DNA of 64,000 nt, from NCBI RefSeq assembly GCF_900128495.1, contig NZ_LT635801.1, positions 124,001 through 188,000 on the forward strand, given 5' to 3'. A program made the translations under genes and the position numbers. Shown piece after piece: positions 1-6,801 of the stretch; positions within the stretch are counted from its first letter, which is position 1, and each line of letters begins with the position of its first letter. Under the pieces are notes generated by a model. That model was not told where the DNA came from. It worked only from the letters and a program-made list of their open reading frames with translations, and ran no database searches. The DNA comes from Bacteroides ilei (GTDB taxonomy: Bacteria > Bacteroidota > Bacteroidia > Bacteroidales > Bacteroidaceae).

Positions 1-42
1 GAACTTTTATGATGGCGTATTTTTCTATTGTTGTGAAATTAT

Positions 43-2691
43 TCATAATGTCTGGTTGTAGAAGAAGTCGTGATAGGTATCATTACCAATGTTAATTATA
101 TACATGTTTTCTCTTGCACGGGTTATCGCCGTATATATCGTTTGTGGCGACATTGGGCGAAATGTCGTATTATGCAAAATAAGATCACTCTCTAGAATAA
201 CTATAACTGAAGGAGATTCCCATCCCTTGAAACTTTGTATGGTAGATATTTTTAAACAACGTTTATCTGTCGTAAACAATTGCTTTCTTGTTCGTTCAAG
301 TGCCTCAAAATCTCTATTAAATTTCCAGTTGGCTATCTTTTCATCATTAACCTGATGTATTTGCTTTAACCGTTCAAGAACTTCGTTTGAAATAAATGTT
401 ATTTCTGTTTGTTCGTTAGTCTTTTGTCGATAAAGAATGTCAATATTGCGAAGCAATTTTGTTGACGAAGCAAGTATAACAAAGTCTTTTGCTTCGTTAT
501 TGTCATTGGAAATGATGTTGATAATATTAGTTACTATGGACTCAAAGGAATTATTTTGTCTTAAATCAATATAGGTTAAAATTTGGAAGTTGAATGTATT
601 TAACATGGCATTCTCCGCAGCCATATCATCGGTAGGTAAATTTGCCATAAATTGCGTTTGAAATGCTGTGGCAAGATTAGCAAGGCGTGGATTAGTAAAT
701 CTTCGGCTGGTTGTTAATTGCCGATTCCACTGTCCCCCAATAATGCCTAAGCGAATGTCTCCATTTGTATCTAAAGGTCGTTGATATACATTTTGTTTGG
801 GATCTCCAAACACTACTAGTTCACCATTAGACTCTAAGAGAAAATTCCGCATGACGATACGAAGCCATTCCGTAGTATAGTCTTGAACCTCATCAACGAA
901 AATAGCAGAATATTTCTTATGATTTGGGGAGTTATCAAAGAAAGTTTCGTCTTGATATGAGTCAAATTCAACATGTAACTTACATTCTGCAGCACGTATT
1001 CTAAAGAACTGATGATAAGGATATATGTCTATTTTTTCCCATGAGAAATCCTCCCGAATTTCGGATAACCTAAACTTCAGATAATTTGCTAATGTAATGT
1101 TATAGGTTAACACTAAGACATCACCTCCAGTACGTTTCATGGCATTTACCGCTCTAAAAGCAAGTACTTGAGTTTTTCCAGAACCAGCGACACCACTTAT
1201 TTTCTGTTGTGTTATACTACTTTCCGATAGTCGCTTCTGTGCACCAATAGGTTGCATATCAATGCGTCCTTCCTGATATGAATGCCAGGATGGAGATATT
1301 ATTCTAGCCAATTTCCTTCTTACTACATCGTCAAAAGTATTGTTGTTGTATAGGAAACCTATGGTAGTATACAAATTTTGTGATATTTCTCTATTATCAA
1401 TAATCTCCCTACCGAAGATAAAGGTAAAATTAAAGACGTTATTCTGATATTTAAAAAATTTTTTTATTTCGTCAATAGAGTTCTCTGAGAACACAACCGC
1501 CTTTTTGATAAGACTAAAATTCCGACTATCTTCAATGGTACTCATCAAAAGTTCTTCTATACCATCCTTAATGCTCAATTGACATACACTAATAAGGTCA
1601 ATGGGAGATTGATATAGTTTCCCATGTACATTTATTTCCTTTTTATCTTCTGATAATGTACACTCATTTAAGTCCTCCTCGAACACGTTCAGTAGAAGAA
1701 TCCCCTTATTAGGTCTAACGATAATAAAATCTACAGACACTTCGTTTACTACTGCATCAATATACATTATGTCATCCACAGACAGAATATTCTCAAGTCT
1801 CCATGCGACTCTTGCTTTTTGATATGATAGCACATGATTCTGTATCTGCAAACGTAAATCATATTCATTATATATTGCCTCGTGCCTCTCATTCACTAGA
1901 TCTAATTTGTTAAGATCAATTGTTGCACCATTGTACTCAAAACATCTTGTCATACAAGTATAGGGATGCGCTGTTCTTCTTGTGCGTGCATAACGTACAC
2001 TATTTATCTGGCTAAAATAATTTTGTTCTCCAAAAACAGAACAGAACTTCTCAATTCTATACGCAGCACCATTTTGTGGACCAATACATAAAACAAAGTG
2101 TTTTCCGTGTGCAGATGCCACCATCTTTGCAACTTCCCCCAAGTCAATAGAAGTCACATCCAAAATATTAGAAAAAACATGGATGATATTATTGTATCTA
2201 TATCCAATAGAACTAAGAGTCTCACCTTCTGCTAATCCGTTTGCTGGAAGAAAAAGGTTCTTTATATCTATTTCAACTGTGCCATTCGTAAGAGTTCGGA
2301 TATTATCGTTGGCGCGTTCAATTGCATTACTAGAAGGCTCAATAAGCGTTACTTTATGTAACCATTGAAGTAAATGATGCTGCTTTAACACTTCAATTAT
2401 GGTAGCTGAACCTATACCTTGACCACATCCCCAATCAACTATCTCAATACTCCCCTGAATATCGTCAAATGGAAAATTCATCATTGCGGCACGGCACTTG
2501 GTTACATGCATATCGCCATATGCAGACATATAACAATTTAGAGCCACATCACTTGCTAATAGATTTATGCCATGCTTTAACTCTGGATGTGTCCAAGGTT
2601 TTCCCTTGTATTCTTCGGGCAAAGCATTGTGACAATAATCAATAATGTCATCAATACTATTACATTTATTTATATCTTCTGCGTATGGCAT
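43..2691 (-). CDS. Methyltransferase-like / NERD-like / SF1 (UvrD-type) helicase fusion, 882 aa
   Basis: Three regions are readable. Residues about 80-250 resemble a SAM-dependent methyltransferase, with glycine-rich motif I VDWGCGQG at 85-92. Residues about 290-440 resemble a nuclease-related NERD domain (VDFIIVRPNKGILLLNVF, 320-337). Residues about 480-882 form a superfamily 1 helicase with Walker A GVAGSGKT (500-507), Walker B DEVQD (600-604), GDPKQNVY (629-636), STIQSFKGWE (817-826) and YTAITRARE (853-861). The NERD E-x-K catalytic pair appears replaced by N335-V-F337, so nuclease activity is doubtful, while the helicase motifs look intact. The gene starts 2 bp after the DUF1848 stop, with an AGGAAG ribosome site inside that gene, so the two are probably co-translated. 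A nucleic-acid surveillance or defence role is inference. Confidence 0.85.
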   Translation of the reverse strand: MPYAEDINKCNSIDDIIDYCHNALPEEYKGKPWTHPELKHGINLLASDVALNCYMSAYGDMHVTKCRAAMMNFPFDDIQGSIEIVDWGCGQGIGSATIIEVLKQHHLLQWLHKVTLIEPSSNAIERANDNIRTLTNGTVEIDIKNLFLPANGLAEGETLSSIGYRYNNIIHVFSNILDVTSIDLGEVAKMVASAHGKHFVLCIGPQNGAAYRIEKFCSVFGEQNYFSQINSVRYARTRRTAHPYTCMTRCFEYNGATIDLNKLDLVNERHEAIYNEYDLRLQIQNHVLSYQKARVAWRLENILSVDDIMYIDAVVNEVSVDFIIVRPNKGILLLNVFEEDLNECTLSEDKKEINVHGKLYQSPIDLISVCQLSIKDGIEELLMSTIEDSRNFSLIKKAVVFSENSIDEIKKFFKYQNNVFNFTFIFGREIIDNREISQNLYTTIGFLYNNNTFDDVVRRKLARIISPSWHSYQEGRIDMQPIGAQKRLSESSITQQKISGVAGSGKTQVLAFRAVNAMKRTGGDVLVLTYNITLANYLKFRLSEIREDFSWEKIDIYPYHQFFRIRAAECKLHVEFDSYQDETFFDNSPNHKKYSAIFVDEVQDYTTEWLRIVMRNFLLESNGELVVFGDPKQNVYQRPLDTNGDIRLGIIGGQWNRQLTTSRRFTNPRLANLATAFQTQFMANLPTDDMAAENAMLNTFNFQILTYIDLRQNNSFESIVTNIINIISNDNNEAKDFVILASSTKLLRNIDILYRQKTNEQTEITFISNEVLERLKQIHQVNDEKIANWKFNRDFEALERTRKQLFTTDKRCLKISTIQSFKGWESPSVIVILESDLILHNTTFRPMSPQTIYTAITRARENMYIINIGNDTYHDFFYNQTL

Positions 2692-2693
2692 AA

Positions 2694-3758
2694 TTATCTT
2701 CCTGTTATTGTTTCTGCAAATCTATTCTTTAGATGCTGTTCCCAATTTTGCAATGCCAATTGTTTGGTGGTGTTGGCATAACAGTATTCACAAAGATGCG
2801 GACAAGTGTTGTATTCACCAATGTCTTTAGAGGCCATGCACTCACAAAATGGTCGCTGTCCTTGGTCTTTCTTGTGTTTACTGATGAAGTAATGGTTATG
2901 AGGCAGGAGTATCGCTCCATTAGGTAACTCTGGATTGCCAAAGAACATTGGTTCTGGAACGTTCTCTATCTTTACATTCATGAATTTCATCAGATCCTTG
3001 TCATTCCATGCCAAACGAGTAATCAGGTCTCCGTCTATGCAGCGATTGTGTTGAATGCCATATTTTGAAATATCTATTTTTTCACCACAAGTTGCTAGTT
3101 GGAAGTTCCAGCCACGCTCACGATTCATAATAGACAGTTTGTCGGCAAACTCTTCCATTTGCTCTATATTCCACTCATTGTATGATATGCCACTTACTTC
3201 AAGATTATGTTTCACTTTCTTGTACATGGTAATATCTGCATAGCTGAATACCAATTTCTCTGTGTAATCTTTTAGTTGATCACCAATATTTTGAACTTTC
3301 CATAGCAAGTCATCTACAGATATGTCATTTGTTAGCATCATGGGGTCAAACCGCCAAATAACAGCACCTTTACCAAGTTGCTCAACAAGTAACTTGAATG
3401 TTTCTATGCGTTTAGCAAGAGAAGGTACTTTCTCTAACTTCTCTTGTTCATAATCATTCAGGGTATATTGAACATAGCACTTAATGTTACGCTCTTTGAG
3501 GATATGCAGATATGGCAACAATGGTTGTGGGTTCTTTGACCAAAATACAATGAAGCGAGTATTCTCATACGAGACATAAGACTTTACGCCGTTGAACGGA
3601 TTTGTCCAGACAGAATACCCCTTCTGTAAACGATGGAAAAACCAATCAGCATAGAATGCCGGAATGTCGGTACTCCTACTTGCAGAAATAATGAGGGGAG
3701 CTTGTGCTTTTACAGGTAGTCCATTAATAATGATGTCTGTACGTTGCCATGTTGCCAT
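2694..3758 (-). CDS. DUF1848 family protein with C-terminal cysteine cluster
   Basis: This 354-residue protein matches the DUF1848 family. The N-terminal part has the family signature around IISASRSTDIPAFYADWF and later FVFWSKNPQPLL. The C-terminus carries a cysteine cluster (C-x-C, then C-x3-C-x2-C at about residues 305-330) like the Fe-S binding cysteines of radical SAM enzymes; DUF1848 is described as having such a cluster. The function is unknown and a radical-SAM-like or photolyase-like chemistry is only a suggestion. It lies 2 bp upstream of the methyltransferase-helicase gene and 82 bp downstream of the GIY-YIG gene, in the same direction. A perfect 18-bp palindrome sits about 60 bp upstream of its start. 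Confidence 0.85.
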   Translation of the reverse strand: MATWQRTDIIINGLPVKAQAPLIISASRSTDIPAFYADWFFHRLQKGYSVWTNPFNGVKSYVSYENTRFIVFWSKNPQPLLPYLHILKERNIKCYVQYTLNDYEQEKLEKVPSLAKRIETFKLLVEQLGKGAVIWRFDPMMLTNDISVDDLLWKVQNIGDQLKDYTEKLVFSYADITMYKKVKHNLEVSGISYNEWNIEQMEEFADKLSIMNRERGWNFQLATCGEKIDISKYGIQHNRCIDGDLITRLAWNDKDLMKFMNVKIENVPEPMFFGNPELPNGAILLPHNHYFISKHKKDQGQRPFCECMASKDIGEYNTCPHLCEYCYANTTKQLALQNWEQHLKNRFAETITGR

Positions 3759-3820
3759 AATAAATTAGAAGCTTTTGAATGTTTCTTTTATCTTTTTTAT
3801 TTTCTTCTCTTCTGCCATTG

Positions 3821-3838
3821 GCATACTCTAGAGTATGC
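3821..3838. promoter_or_regulatory. Perfect 18-bp palindrome upstream of the DUF1848 gene
   Basis: The sequence GCATACTCTAGAGTATGC is a perfect palindrome with no spacer. It lies just after the GIY-YIG stop codon and 63 bp before the DUF1848 start on the minus strand. Without a loop or U-tract it is a poor terminator, and it has the symmetry expected of a homodimer operator. Assignment to any regulator, such as the island's XRE protein, is inference. Confidence 0.45.
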
Positions 3839-3840
3839 TT

Positions 3841-4470
3841 TCACTCTTCAAATGGATATGTTTCGTCATAGACTTCACTTAGAAGACGATCGTTGAAAAG
3901 CCAGTGTGGCGTCGGCTGTATATGTTTGACTTTGTAGCCTTTTAGCTTAGCAGAAAGTGCACTGATAGAAGTTTCTTCTCCTTGATAACACACTTTGCGC
4001 TCTGAAAGAATAGTGACAGAAATTGATGGGTCATCTTTCCAGATGAGAACATCGCCTTTCTGCAATCCCATCTCATAGAAATTGAGCGGTGGACGTTTTG
4101 CATGTGCTTTTGTGCTGGCAGCTTTGTCCTCATCTGTGAGGTCGTTCTGTATCTCGTCTGTCACTTCTTCCGTCACATCTTCATGGTGGAAAAGTTCGAG
4201 TATGGCTTGCGCCTGTTCCACGTTGATACGGAAGAACTCACGGTTCTGATTGATACGCTGAGGGTCAAAGGCTTTATGAAGGGCTTTTTCAATTTTGAGA
4301 CAGTCACTTTTCTTAACCTTGCACGCAAATTTACACTCAAACGGTACGGGAACTCCTGTTGTATATAATTCCTTCATACGTTTGTCGATGTCTTCCTGTG
4401 TGGTCATACCTATTTTTACAAGTCCTGGCATCACAGGGTTTGTCAGAAGATAAACTATTCCGTATTCCAT
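3841..4470 (-). CDS. GIY-YIG (T5orf172-type) nuclease-family protein with DUF4357 domain
   Basis: This 209-residue protein has an N-terminal GIY-YIG superfamily domain of the T5orf172/MUG113 kind: GIVYLL at 4-9, VKIGMT at 18-23, R31, the EKALHKAF helix at 61-68 and NREFF near 76-80. After an acidic linker rich in E, D and T (about 97-120), residues about 133-200 match DUF4357 (GLQKGDVLIW, DPSISVTI, YQGEETSISALSAKL). DUF4357 commonly accompanies GIY-YIG and restriction-related proteins. T5orf172-type domains occur in phage and mobile-element proteins, and nuclease action on DNA is expected but not shown. It sits between the AlbA_2 gene and the DUF1848 gene in the same direction. Confidence 0.82.
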   Translation of the reverse strand: MEYGIVYLLTNPVMPGLVKIGMTTQEDIDKRMKELYTTGVPVPFECKFACKVKKSDCLKIEKALHKAFDPQRINQNREFFRINVEQAQAILELFHHEDVTEEVTDEIQNDLTDEDKAASTKAHAKRPPLNFYEMGLQKGDVLIWKDDPSISVTILSERKVCYQGEETSISALSAKLKGYKVKHIQPTPHWLFNDRLLSEVYDETYPFEE

Positions 4471-4584
4471 ATCGTTTTTTAGAAATTAGAGATTATTGTA
4501 CGGTTTGTTGTTTGTAATGAAATCAAGAACTTTTTCAAATTTGTACATCAGTGTTACCGTTCTTGTTGGTGAATATATGTGAAC

Positions 4585-6165
4585 TCATTTTTTACTTCTC
4601 CTATATTTTTGATTGCTTGCATTGGGATGCTCGGGATTGGTCATTTCGAGATAGCCAGCCTCGACAAGAGCCATGATGTATGTTTGGATATTCTTGCTAT
4701 GATATGTCACACCAGCCCTTTCAAGAATTTCTTTGCTGCTACGTGGCACACTGCAGAAGTTTACTATATCCCTCTGTTTATTTGTTATTTTAGGACGTTT
4801 AGTGTCAGAGTCAGCATTGAAAGTGTCAGAGTATCTATATTTAGTGTCAGAGTCAGCATTGAAAGTGTCAGAGTTGATGCCTAAGTCGGTGTCAGAGTGT
4901 CCAAGTTTAGTATCTAAGTTACCATTGACTTGGCTACCCTCCGGTCTATTTATAGTAATTACAAACTCGTTAGTTCTGTCATTGTTGGTGAATGAAACTT
5001 TCATATCCTCAGATAAGGCACGAAGCATACCACTACCTGCTCCTGTGTAGGGGAGCAAATGGATGGCATTTGTGAAGAGGAACATATTGCGTGGCATGGA
5101 TGTACCTACAACAATATCATCCACGCTAAGCCCATTAGGGAGAATTCCGGGGCTGTGTATCTCCACCCTGTCATCAAAGATGAATATACGGATAGGAGCA
5201 GTCGCATTCAGCGAGCGATGTACCAAAGCATTTACGGTGAACTCAACAAGGCTGATGTATGAAATCTCCAATACTCCTTGCGAGTTAAACTCTTTTCCAA
5301 CTTGTATATGGCGCAAGTTCCGGGTGAAGAAATCCATAATAGTTTCAAACTGATGAAGCAGATTTCCTTCAATGTCGGCATCATTCACCTTATCGCGAAA
5401 TTGTGTACCTCCAAGATTGTTGCCCACAAAACAAATGCACTTTGCTGTCATTGCAGGAAGCCAACGCTGAGTGTACTTGCCAAACAGCAACATTGCAGCC
5501 ACTGTGATTTTTCCATCGGGTCGGATGAAACGTAGGTTACGCAGCAGCTTCTCCCCATCGTGCCCACTAGCGATAGCAGAACAGACTGCATCTAAAGAGG
5601 TCTCGCGGAATGCATCACCCACCAAACCTTTTCTCACCAATACTTTTTCAAACTTGTTGCTTAAAAAGGTTTTGATGGTATTCTCGTCCAAGTCCTTAAT
5701 CGTAGCATCCCGAACCCCAGCTTCATCAGGCGAGAAACTACCGCAGTCGGTCATCATCTCGGCAAGTTCGACATTATCGAACACCTTGCGCTTGTCGGCA
5801 CCGTTCTTCACCCACACAATACCCCGATTGTCGTGGTAAGGCTTATTCACCCCTTCTTTAATATGAGCCACAACAAGGCTTCCGCCATCCACGGAAATAG
5901 TTTCTACATCAACAAGGATGGCAGGAACAACATTTTCTGATGCGATGTTGCTAAGTGTGTTCGTGGTTTCCTGTACTTCCAGATATGACAAAGGATTGAG
6001 ACTGCCGGTTTTGTCCTTCACACCAACGACCAATGTTCCACCACGTGCATTGCTGAATGCCACCAATTCGCAGCCGATGTCGTAGCTGTCAAGGAGCCGT
6101 TCTTTGAACTGCATCTTACTGACTTCGCCAGACTTTATCTGTTGGATAATATCTATTTCATTCAT
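4585..6165 (-). CDS. AlbA_2 (Schlafen-type) domain protein with RecG-C-like ATPase fold and winged helix
   Basis: This 526-residue protein has an N-terminal AlbA_2 domain (about 14-135; FSNARGGTLVVGVKD is typical). A middle region (about 300-400; EFTVNALVHRSL, DDRVEIHSPG) resembles the HATPase_c_4 domain often mislabelled 'RecG-like helicase C-terminal'. A likely winged helix lies at about 460-526. The linker holds short repeats with the sequence SDT encoded by near-perfect DNA repeats. AlbA_2 proteins are usually transcription regulators or defence-associated nucleic-acid-binding proteins; the exact role here is unknown. The start codon overlaps the stop of the upstream XRE gene by 4 bp (ATGA), so the two are translationally coupled. 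It is not a true RecG because the helicase core is absent. Confidence 0.85.
   Translation of the reverse strand: MNEIDIIQQIKSGEVSKMQFKERLLDSYDIGCELVAFSNARGGTLVVGVKDKTGSLNPLSYLEVQETTNTLSNIASENVVPAILVDVETISVDGGSLVVAHIKEGVNKPYHDNRGIVWVKNGADKRKVFDNVELAEMMTDCGSFSPDEAGVRDATIKDLDENTIKTFLSNKFEKVLVRKGLVGDAFRETSLDAVCSAIASGHDGEKLLRNLRFIRPDGKITVAAMLLFGKYTQRWLPAMTAKCICFVGNNLGGTQFRDKVNDADIEGNLLHQFETIMDFFTRNLRHIQVGKEFNSQGVLEISYISLVEFTVNALVHRSLNATAPIRIFIFDDRVEIHSPGILPNGLSVDDIVVGTSMPRNMFLFTNAIHLLPYTGAGSGMLRALSEDMKVSFTNNDRTNEFVITINRPEGSQVNGNLDTKLGHSDTDLGINSDTFNADSDTKYRYSDTFNADSDTKRPKITNKQRDIVNFCSVPRSSKEILERAGVTYHSKNIQTYIMALVEAGYLEMTNPEHPNASNQKYRRSKK
4800..4874. repeat. In-gene tandem repeat (33-bp identical units, 42-bp period)
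   Basis: Two identical 33-bp copies (4800-4832 and 4842-4874) lie inside the AlbA_2 gene, and degenerate copies of the GTGTCAGAGT core follow to about 4890. On the coding strand they give repeated SDT, SDTFNADSDTK-like segments in the linker between the ATPase-like region and the C-terminal winged helix. The period is a multiple of three, so gain or loss of a unit would change linker length without a frameshift. Confidence 0.85.
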
Positions 6166-6377
6166 TTTTTCAAATGTTTTTGGTTGAGCAGTCTACCTGC
6201 ATCAATATTCAAAGCTTCTGCTATTCGCAGGAGGTTTCTTGCGTCAGGCTGCATGGTATTTGTCACCCATTTGGAGACAGTAGCCCTGTCTTTTCCTAAT
6301 TGCTCTGCCAGCCACTTGCTACTTTTTTGCTCTTCGGCAAGCACAATCTTCAGCCTGTTAATCATTTCTTTTTCCAT
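6162..6377 (-). CDS. XRE-family helix-turn-helix regulator
   Basis: This 71-residue protein is little more than one HTH_3/Cro-CI DNA-binding domain. The helix-turn-helix is at about residues 18-45 (SKWLAEQLGKDRATVSKW), followed by the conserved segment RNLLRIAEALNID. It is the first gene of the co-directional island module and overlaps the AlbA_2 gene by 4 bp. A small XRE protein at the head of an accessory operon usually represses its own promoter, and that is the inferred role here. A near-consensus -7 element (TACCTTTA on the minus strand, 6398-6405) lies just upstream of its start. Confidence 0.88.
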   Translation of the reverse strand: MEKEMINRLKIVLAEEQKSSKWLAEQLGKDRATVSKWVTNTMQPDARNLLRIAEALNIDAGRLLNQKHLKK

Positions 6378-6756: not shown

Positions 6757-6801
6757 TCTCATAATCTGGAGGTCCCAGGTTCAAGCCCTGGCTGGTCCAC
6801 A
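6757..6801 (+). other. 3' fragment of a CAT-anticodon tRNA gene (putative att site)
   Basis: The segment contains an intact anticodon loop CTCATAA (anticodon CAT at 6760-6762), the 3' anticodon strand TCTGG, a variable region, a perfect T arm (CCAGG-loop-CCTGG, 6775-6791) and an acceptor 3' strand CTGGTCC followed by ACA. The bases before it cannot pair with TCTGG, and no D arm or 5' acceptor strand exists, so this is not a functional tRNA gene. It matches the 3' portion of an elongator tRNA-Met or tRNA-Ile(CAT) gene, as left at one end of an element integrated into that tRNA. Confidence 0.75.

Follow-up and report, generated by a model that had tools for sequence, protein, structure and literature searches.

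A small operon at the left edge of a 64,000-nucleotide stretch of Bacteroides ilei DNA (contig NZ_LT635801.1, positions 124,001 to 188,000; the window) joins a DUF1848 protein, a fusion of a methyltransferase to a helicase motor and a third protein, and in our judgement it probably serves to stop invading elements, the substrate, the direction of the effect and the defensive purpose being those that we infer. The operon is one of three separable cargo units among five genes that an initial annotation had grouped as one accessory module, and it is the only one of the three that is widely conserved, as a gene set found in gut bacteria. All three are carried by a mobilizable element inserted in a tRNA-Met gene. 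The window corresponds to G000:C1:124001-188000, G000 being its own genome, and its features, in window coordinates, are as follows.

1..46, minus strand: first codons of the TerB-like gene, module gene 3; the remainder (G000:C1:123741-124000) lies left of the window
43..2691, minus strand: methyltransferase/NERD-like/UvrD fusion, module gene 2 (Pfam UvrD-helicase 5e-11; PADLOC C3a187)
2694..3758, minus strand: DUF1848 protein, module gene 1, the constant part, a predicted radical-SAM-like barrel (Pfam DUF1848 6e-90)
3841..4470, minus strand: GIY-YIG protein, a cargo unit of its own (Pfam T5orf172 7e-20; PADLOC candidate PDC-S57)
4585..6165, minus strand: AlbA_2 / HATPase_c_4 / Fic-like_C protein, a separate cargo unit with XRE (SLFN_AlbA_2 2e-21)
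6162..6377, minus strand: XRE-type regulator of 71 residues, partner of the AlbA_2 gene (Pfam HTH_3/HTH_19)
6758..6800, plus strand: attR, where the mobile element ends on the right, formed by tRNA-Met from the anticodon to the 3' end

DUF1848 is a constant neighbour of the methyltransferase fusion

Conservation of the pair was measured from the side of the methyltransferase, whose domain, and not DUF1848, served as the probe; the best 80 of 274 contig loci were taken. In 71 of these 80 loci a DUF1848 gene precedes the domain on its strand at a distance of no more than 150 bp, and when the loci were clustered at 70% identity, 35 of the 41 clusters were wholly DUF1848-adjacent and 36 at least partly so. 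The initial annotation had proposed a check of co-occurrence across genomes, and the outcome is divided: the five-gene set is mostly apart, and DUF1848 and the methyltransferase-helicase stay together. DUF1848 itself was found in 30 of 149 relatives and in 75 of 395 genomes drawn from the whole phylum, mostly in single copy, so by our own estimate chance adjacency is negligible.

Other collections gave a similar picture. The methyltransferase domain was found, at the cut-off used, in 10 of the 149 relatives, with DUF1848 touching it in 8; one gene lies between the two in G092 and two genes in G106, and in G124 the match is limited to the helicase half. The phylum-wide draw held the domain in four genomes: our own, G520 (where DUF1848 ends 508 bp ahead of the matched stretch), G431 (DUF1848 on a different contig) and G224, with no DUF1848 at the cut-off. 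In a viral collection, DUF1848 stood just upstream in all four loci, two of them near-identical. Weaker methyltransferase genes were also seen beside DUF1848, 3 bp downstream in L060 and on the opposite strand in L057.

The nine loci of the 80 without DUF1848 directly upstream weigh against the pairing. In L109 and L120 a GRAM-like protein takes its place and a DUF1848 lies 1.7 kb downstream. In L115 and L126 DUF1848 is one gene further upstream, in L125 it precedes a different methyltransferase gene of that locus, and no DUF1848 was found within the loci L137, L140, L147 and L151. On the other hand, a second, independent operon links the same functions: in 4 of 22 DUF1848 loci (L061, L062, L064 and L065), a methyltransferase, a UvrD helicase, a protein of 689-823 residues and DUF1848 follow one another as separate genes; in L061 the methyltransferase is joined to a NERD domain with an intact E-x-K.

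Methyltransferase-helicase cassettes are exchanged as a whole

Two types of helicase occur among the best 80 loci. The fusion is of the UvrD type in 54 and carries a superfamily 2 (SF2) helicase in 24, with lengths of 872-1798 residues; in the SF2 examples scanned with Pfam, DEAD and Helicase_C were found together in L022, L023, L025, L027, L058, L125, L142 and L146, and DEAD alone in L137 and L151. The third gene tracks the helicase type. The TerB cluster is present in 33 loci, every one of them UvrD-type, and the next gene of SF2-type loci encodes a coiled-coil-like protein of 124-141 residues in 11 loci and another such protein, of roughly 310 residues, in 7. In the one example inspected of each of these SF2-type third proteins, a likely C-terminal membrane helix was recognised by eye.

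Trees of the two partners treat the helicase type very differently. The methyltransferase-domain tree, with 79 rows, needs only two changes of type, against a mean of 22.0 in shuffled labels (0 of 500 as low), and one set of identical rows bears both labels. In the tree of DUF1848 (71 rows) there are 17 changes, close to the shuffled mean of 18.2-18.4 (135-138 of 500 as low), and at least 10 are forced by supported branches. A reduced DUF1848 tree of 60 rows, from which genes below 800 residues and six long or odd rows (L133, L146, L094, L104, L095 and L135) were removed, still required 13 changes, of which supported branches force 7 or more; shuffled labels averaged 15.6, with 35-43 of 500 shuffles as low. 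On this tree a single clade was rejected (approximately unbiased test, p-AU 4e-60). In 44 of 70 cases the nearest DUF1848 neighbour shares the helicase type, where by our own arithmetic chance would give about 40. If each type is taken separately, the identities of DUF1848 and of the methyltransferase are correlated (r of 0.41 and 0.64; 0 of 1000 permutations as high). From the numbers of changes and this correlation it therefore follows that the partners co-travel for a time and that entire methyltransferase-helicase cassettes have repeatedly been exchanged under a conserved DUF1848. It should be noted that the trees, those of DUF1848 among them, were quick ones with many weak branches, which counts against this conclusion.

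Several further arrangements were seen around the module. Near DUF1848, the methyltransferase domain can be fused to BspA-type leucine-rich repeats (LRR; L088:12595-14409, L057:8948-11554) or to Sel1 repeats (L144:4508-7438), as though the place of the helicase could be taken by other recognition parts. A small trypsin-like protease gene, a possible optional effector, follows the module at a distance of one or two genes in 5 of the 80 loci (L088, L107, L126, L128 and L129), and another lies directly upstream (L073:6961-7539). In L020 and L126, a gene for a YhcG-type nuclease sits between DUF1848 and the fusion.

The fusion keeps its helicase and methyltransferase motifs and has a degenerate NERD site

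The fusion protein comprises a class I methyltransferase (about residues 1-290), a degenerate NERD-like part (about 290-400) and a UvrD-type superfamily 1 (SF1) helicase (about 470-882). Its AlphaFold2 model has a predicted local distance difference test (pLDDT) score of 88.6 and matches UvrD with a Z of 31. The helicase residues K506, D600, E601, Q633, R664 and R858 (Walker A, DE box, motif Gln/Arg) are present in all 34 sequences compared. The S-adenosylmethionine (SAM) motif I of the methyltransferase, DWxCGQG, and its acidic motif II, EPS, are invariant in 8 of 8, and the domain has no sequence match in PDB by which a family could be assigned.

The NERD catalytic motif is D...E-x-K. In the NERD-like part of the fusion the D is kept in 33 of 34 sequences, the E in one and the K in none. 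This does not support an active NERD nuclease, and a NERD nuclease was rejected as the effector in the window's type. Pfam NERD does not match the fusion; the PADLOC model C3a187, 'NERD+UvrD', covers residues 289-865 (6e-35).

Among the domain names of the initial annotation, XRE, AlbA_2, GIY-YIG, DUF1848 and the helicase were confirmed; the methyltransferase is only weakly matched by Pfam (Methyltransf_31, 0.04), NERD is absent by Pfam, and DUF4357 went undetected at E<=0.1 in the Pfam scan of the window proteins.

DUF1848 is a candidate radical SAM enzyme

The initial annotation had rightly seen in the DUF1848 protein a possible radical-type enzyme. A single CX3CXphiC motif lies at residues 319-326 of 354, and C319, C323, Y325 and C326 are invariant in 52 sequences. 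Seven cysteines in all are invariant in this set, the three of the motif and C224, C240, C305 and C307, so there would be room for a second cluster. The DUF1848 model (pLDDT 91.3) was compared with known structures in a second look that re-ranks Foldseek candidates, and rows 1-20 of 50 were all radical SAM enzymes, with Z of 7.8-9.2. They include SuiB (9.2), Elp3 (8.7), spore photoproduct lyase (five entries, up to 8.6), Mmp10 (8.5), viperin (8.1), RlmN (four entries) and the pyruvate formate-lyase (PFL) activase (three); the first row of another kind is LeuA, at Z 7.6.

According to a published account, the cluster motif of radical SAM enzymes is usually near the N-terminus (PMC4389238). The position in DUF1848 departs from this, its motif being C-terminal. 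The structural alignments begin at DUF1848 residues 1-20 and end at 223-337. In most rows the aligned range of the known enzyme starts after its own cluster motif; that of 4k9r starts before it.

Several results weigh against a radical SAM assignment. Z values of 8-9 are near those reached by models without relatives, and 7-8 is common where there is no relationship. Foldseek by itself gave the DUF1848 model only weak barrel matches, none at E<1e-3. When the PDB set was searched with the plain DUF1848 profile, no radical SAM enzyme was hit, and neither was one with a profile whose motif had been moved to the front, tried with four permuted sequences; Pfam gave PF08902 only. Judged from the model and the invariant cysteines, DUF1848 is probably an iron-sulphur enzyme of the radical SAM type whose motif has shifted to the C-terminus.

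The five genes are three separable units

All five co-directional frames of the initial annotation were found at the positions listed above, on the minus strand. The XRE and AlbA_2 frames overlap by 4 bp and DUF1848 and the fusion are 2 bp apart. The operon continues past the left window edge, where the fusion gene overlaps by 4 bp with the gene for a TerB-like protein of 101 residues (G000:C1:123741-124046). The ratio of nonsynonymous to synonymous substitution rates (dN/dS) is 0.03-0.12 for AlbA_2, GIY-YIG, DUF1848 and the fusion, measured among relatives with unsaturated synonymous sites and with XRE left out, so that these four genes are under purifying selection. Promoter-like sites numbered 26 against 24.3 expected by chance and terminator-like sites 8 against 4.6, none of the latter in the two gaps flanking GIY-YIG.

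The suggestion of 'two or three neighbouring cargo units' proved apt, three being found: XRE with AlbA_2, the lone GIY-YIG gene, and DUF1848-fusion-TerB. At the cut-offs used, the GIY-YIG protein was present in 12 of the 149 relatives and the AlbA_2 protein in 14. Among these genomes the complete set was seen beside DUF1848 only in our own, G046 and G062; in G062 XRE through DUF1848 are 90-99% identical and the contig then stops. Elsewhere, in views of about 1.5 kb on either side, GIY-YIG (99%) lies beside an AlbA_2 remnant with no DUF1848 adjoining (G040), XRE-like frames accompany AlbA_2 (96-98%) with no GIY-YIG adjoining (G018), and XRE (100%) and AlbA_2 (about 90%) likewise have no GIY-YIG adjoining (G042). 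The AlbA_2/GIY-YIG set was present in at least 3 of the 80 module loci (L077, L078 and L079, near copies), a lower bound because several loci are cut by contig ends. A single five-gene system was rejected, since the units are also found separately, and the set recurs only in near copies.

Within the linker of the AlbA_2 gene (window 4801-4874) there is an in-frame 21-bp tandem repeat of 3.5 copies; the protein encoded by the copy in G046 has 8 residues more, so the number of repeats may differ between copies.

The module travels on a mobilizable element

Accessory cargo was an accurate description, the five genes being carried by an integrative mobilizable element. To the left of the window lie TerB, an IS21 pair (istA/istB) and then, on the opposite strand, genes for a relaxase, a NikA-like protein, a VapE-like protein, DUF6043 and a tyrosine integrase. 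The tyrosine integrase, the NikA-like protein and the MobA/VirD2-like relaxase are those of an integrative mobilizable element, and G046 shows the tRNA-Met att ends. No conjugation machinery was seen among the element genes scanned, in which no search was aimed at conjugation genes. The G046 copy lacks IS21 and spans about 16.1 kb between tRNA-Met-derived ends. L078 (Bacteroides caecigallinarum ET12, NZ_JADYTJ010000030.1) matches it at 100%, and L077, a Candidatus Gallipaludibacter metagenome-assembled genome, holds a copy 99.4-99.7% identical over 12.4 kb. The element is 99% identical across three records, and a near-identical element is thus present in records of different gut Bacteroidales. 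Among 72,556 plasmid records, 18 match the fusion, none at more than 80% coverage, and 6 match DUF1848. In a phage collection, one record, MT836254, 'unverified' and unannotated, carries the DUF1848/methyltransferase pair. Compared with viral fold models, DUF1848 gave no match at E<1e-3.

The IS21-type insertion (G000:C1:120601-123239) separates the relaxase gene from the TerB gene and shows what looks like an 8-bp target duplication; neither the G046 copy nor the L077 copy has it. In our own genome, the left element end (tRNA-Met plus ~120 bp, 94% to the G046 left end) is far from the integrase on the one contig; each adjoins a 99.9% identical IS66 copy (G000:C1:3240880-3245193 and C1:109670-112735), and the separation is either a rearrangement or an assembly error. 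A palindromic insert of ~30 bp interrupts the D-loop region of the left-end tRNA-Met of G046 (L074:10197-10251), which ARAGORN does not call as a tRNA.

Proposed function and alternatives

In the scheme that we favour, the motor would engage foreign or abnormal DNA or RNA, and the methyltransferase and DUF1848 would chemically modify the engaged nucleic acid or a partner bound to it and in this way stop invaders. DUF1848 would be the constant enzyme, of the iron-sulphur radical SAM type. The methyltransferase-helicase would be its exchangeable nucleic-acid motor partner, UvrD SF1 here and RecQ/DpdF-like SF2 elsewhere, bringing a SAM-dependent methyltransferase, and TerB, or the coiled-coil protein with its likely C-terminal membrane helix, would be the matching third part. 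Conflict with phages or mobile DNA is suggested by the mobile carriage, patchy distribution and exchange of partners, and by the defence relatives and PADLOC-rich neighbours. The 118 neighbour proteins scanned, of 263, matched 263 PADLOC families, compared to 29 families for 80 random proteins of our own genome; these counts are redundant (one protein can match many models) and come from sets that differ in size and organisms. We put forward more tentatively, as a plausible extension, that DUF1848, as a radical SAM enzyme whose cluster motif is circularly shifted, forms the constant catalytic core of an undescribed Bacteroidales family for mobile-DNA conflict, in which entire methyltransferase-motor cassettes (UvrD or RecQ/DpdF-like, perhaps LRR/Sel1) would be exchanged as sensors for a chemistry-based, nuclease-free response to invaders.

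The same genes could be a housekeeping or stress set for RNA or protein modification that mobile elements carry incidentally. The structural matches include the RNA and protein modifiers Elp3, RlmN and SuiB, fusions of the methyltransferase domain to LRR and Sel1 repeats exist as well, and TerB is a stress-linked family. Against this reading stand the patchy distribution (10 of the 149 relatives, 4 of the 395 genomes from the phylum), frequent partner exchange, mobile carriage and PADLOC-rich neighbours, and we regard a housekeeping role as unlikely. Slightly less likely still is a restriction-modification-like system, in which the methyltransferase, with DUF1848, would mark self DNA and the helicase and NERD would destroy unmarked DNA. 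One chain does hold a methyltransferase, a NERD-like domain and a helicase, and the sister gene in L061 keeps E-x-K, but the NERD of the window's type lacks the Lys in 34 of 34 sequences and the Glu in 33 of 34, and among the constant genes of the module there is no further nuclease. With no working nuclease in the window's type, chemical modification, or an effector of a kind still unrecognised, is more probable than plain restriction.

The position of the module beside relaxase and integrase genes might also suggest an aid to transfer or anti-restriction, protecting or helping the element in a new host. This we consider improbable, as the flanking genes of module loci are diverse and show no tie to one relaxase in the loci seen. 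The order of the genes is the same in our own genome, G046, L077, L079 and G062, as it would be if the five genes plus TerB were one functional unit; with 77 of the 80 module loci not showing the set (some due to contig ends) and with XRE+AlbA_2 and GIY-YIG occurring apart, this is very improbable. Our preferred reading remains a DUF1848-centred operon directed at invading elements.

What was a list of accessory genes can now be tested as a system. DUF1848, so far without a known function, acquires a constant partner along with predictions of its fold and its cluster, and the helicase proves to be an exchangeable part. Radical chemistry in defence is known mainly from viperins. If the role of the module is defence, such chemistry would form the core of a second family, unrelated to viperins, and the natural partner exchanges would offer ready tests of specificity.

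Comparison with known systems

No named system matches the set, as the initial annotation had held; what is already known are PADLOC models for single parts (RTasDUF1848, C3a187 and PDC-S57). No paper with DUF1848 or PF08902 was found in the open-access literature, subscription journals, preprints and supplements lying outside the search, and combined topic searches of the same literature found no such system among the matches listed.

By sequence there is a likeness to PADLOC components associated with defence-associated reverse transcriptases (DRT): DUF1848 matches RTasDUF1848 (1e-38) and the fusion RTasHel (1e-14), and one neighbour among the 80 loci (L152) is an AbiP2-like reverse transcriptase. 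The module differs from DRT in that no reverse transcriptase was found among the island genes scanned, which did not include every small frame. The helicase half of the fusion resembles C3a187 (6e-35), which we take to be a NERD+UvrD protein of a type III CRISPR accessory set; here, however, it is fused to a methyltransferase, its NERD site is degenerate and its partner is DUF1848. The SF2 variants match PADLOC models of DpdF, the helicase of Dpd (7-deazapurine in DNA), up to 5e-80. A control protein drawn at random from the chromosome hits the same models at 1e-208, so the SF2 part is read as RecQ/DpdF-like; membership of the SF2 type in Dpd was rejected, the control protein having matched better. 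Dpd models matched no window protein at E<=0.1, and no other Dpd gene was identified among the neighbours, which were partly scanned.

For the predicted enzyme, the predicted barrel of the DUF1848 model (Z 8.1-9.2) and the CX3CXphiC motif recall spore photoproduct lyase, RlmN, Elp3, SuiB and viperin, from which DUF1848 differs by its C-terminal motif and by having no sequence match. A C-terminal cluster domain is described, in the same account, for the radical SAM enzyme ThiC, with the motif CSMCGPKFC (PMC4389238). This motif is unlike the CX3CXphiC of DUF1848, the protein is built differently, and no similarity between the two was seen. Residues 289-871 of the fusion align to the middle and helicase parts of SLFN11 and SLFN14 with a Z of about 26, the root-mean-square deviation being about 20 over both parts; the fusion has a methyltransferase in place of the N-terminal nuclease, and the neighbouring AlbA_2 is separable.

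To our knowledge, neither DUF1848 nor the methyltransferase is part of Shango or Bunzi. Shango Sng models matched no window protein, the TerB gene having been scanned with Pfam only. Like these two systems, the module has a TerB-family component beside a helicase: a published study describes TerB as a component of both, and NERD and TerB as occurring in known defence systems (PMC10952713).

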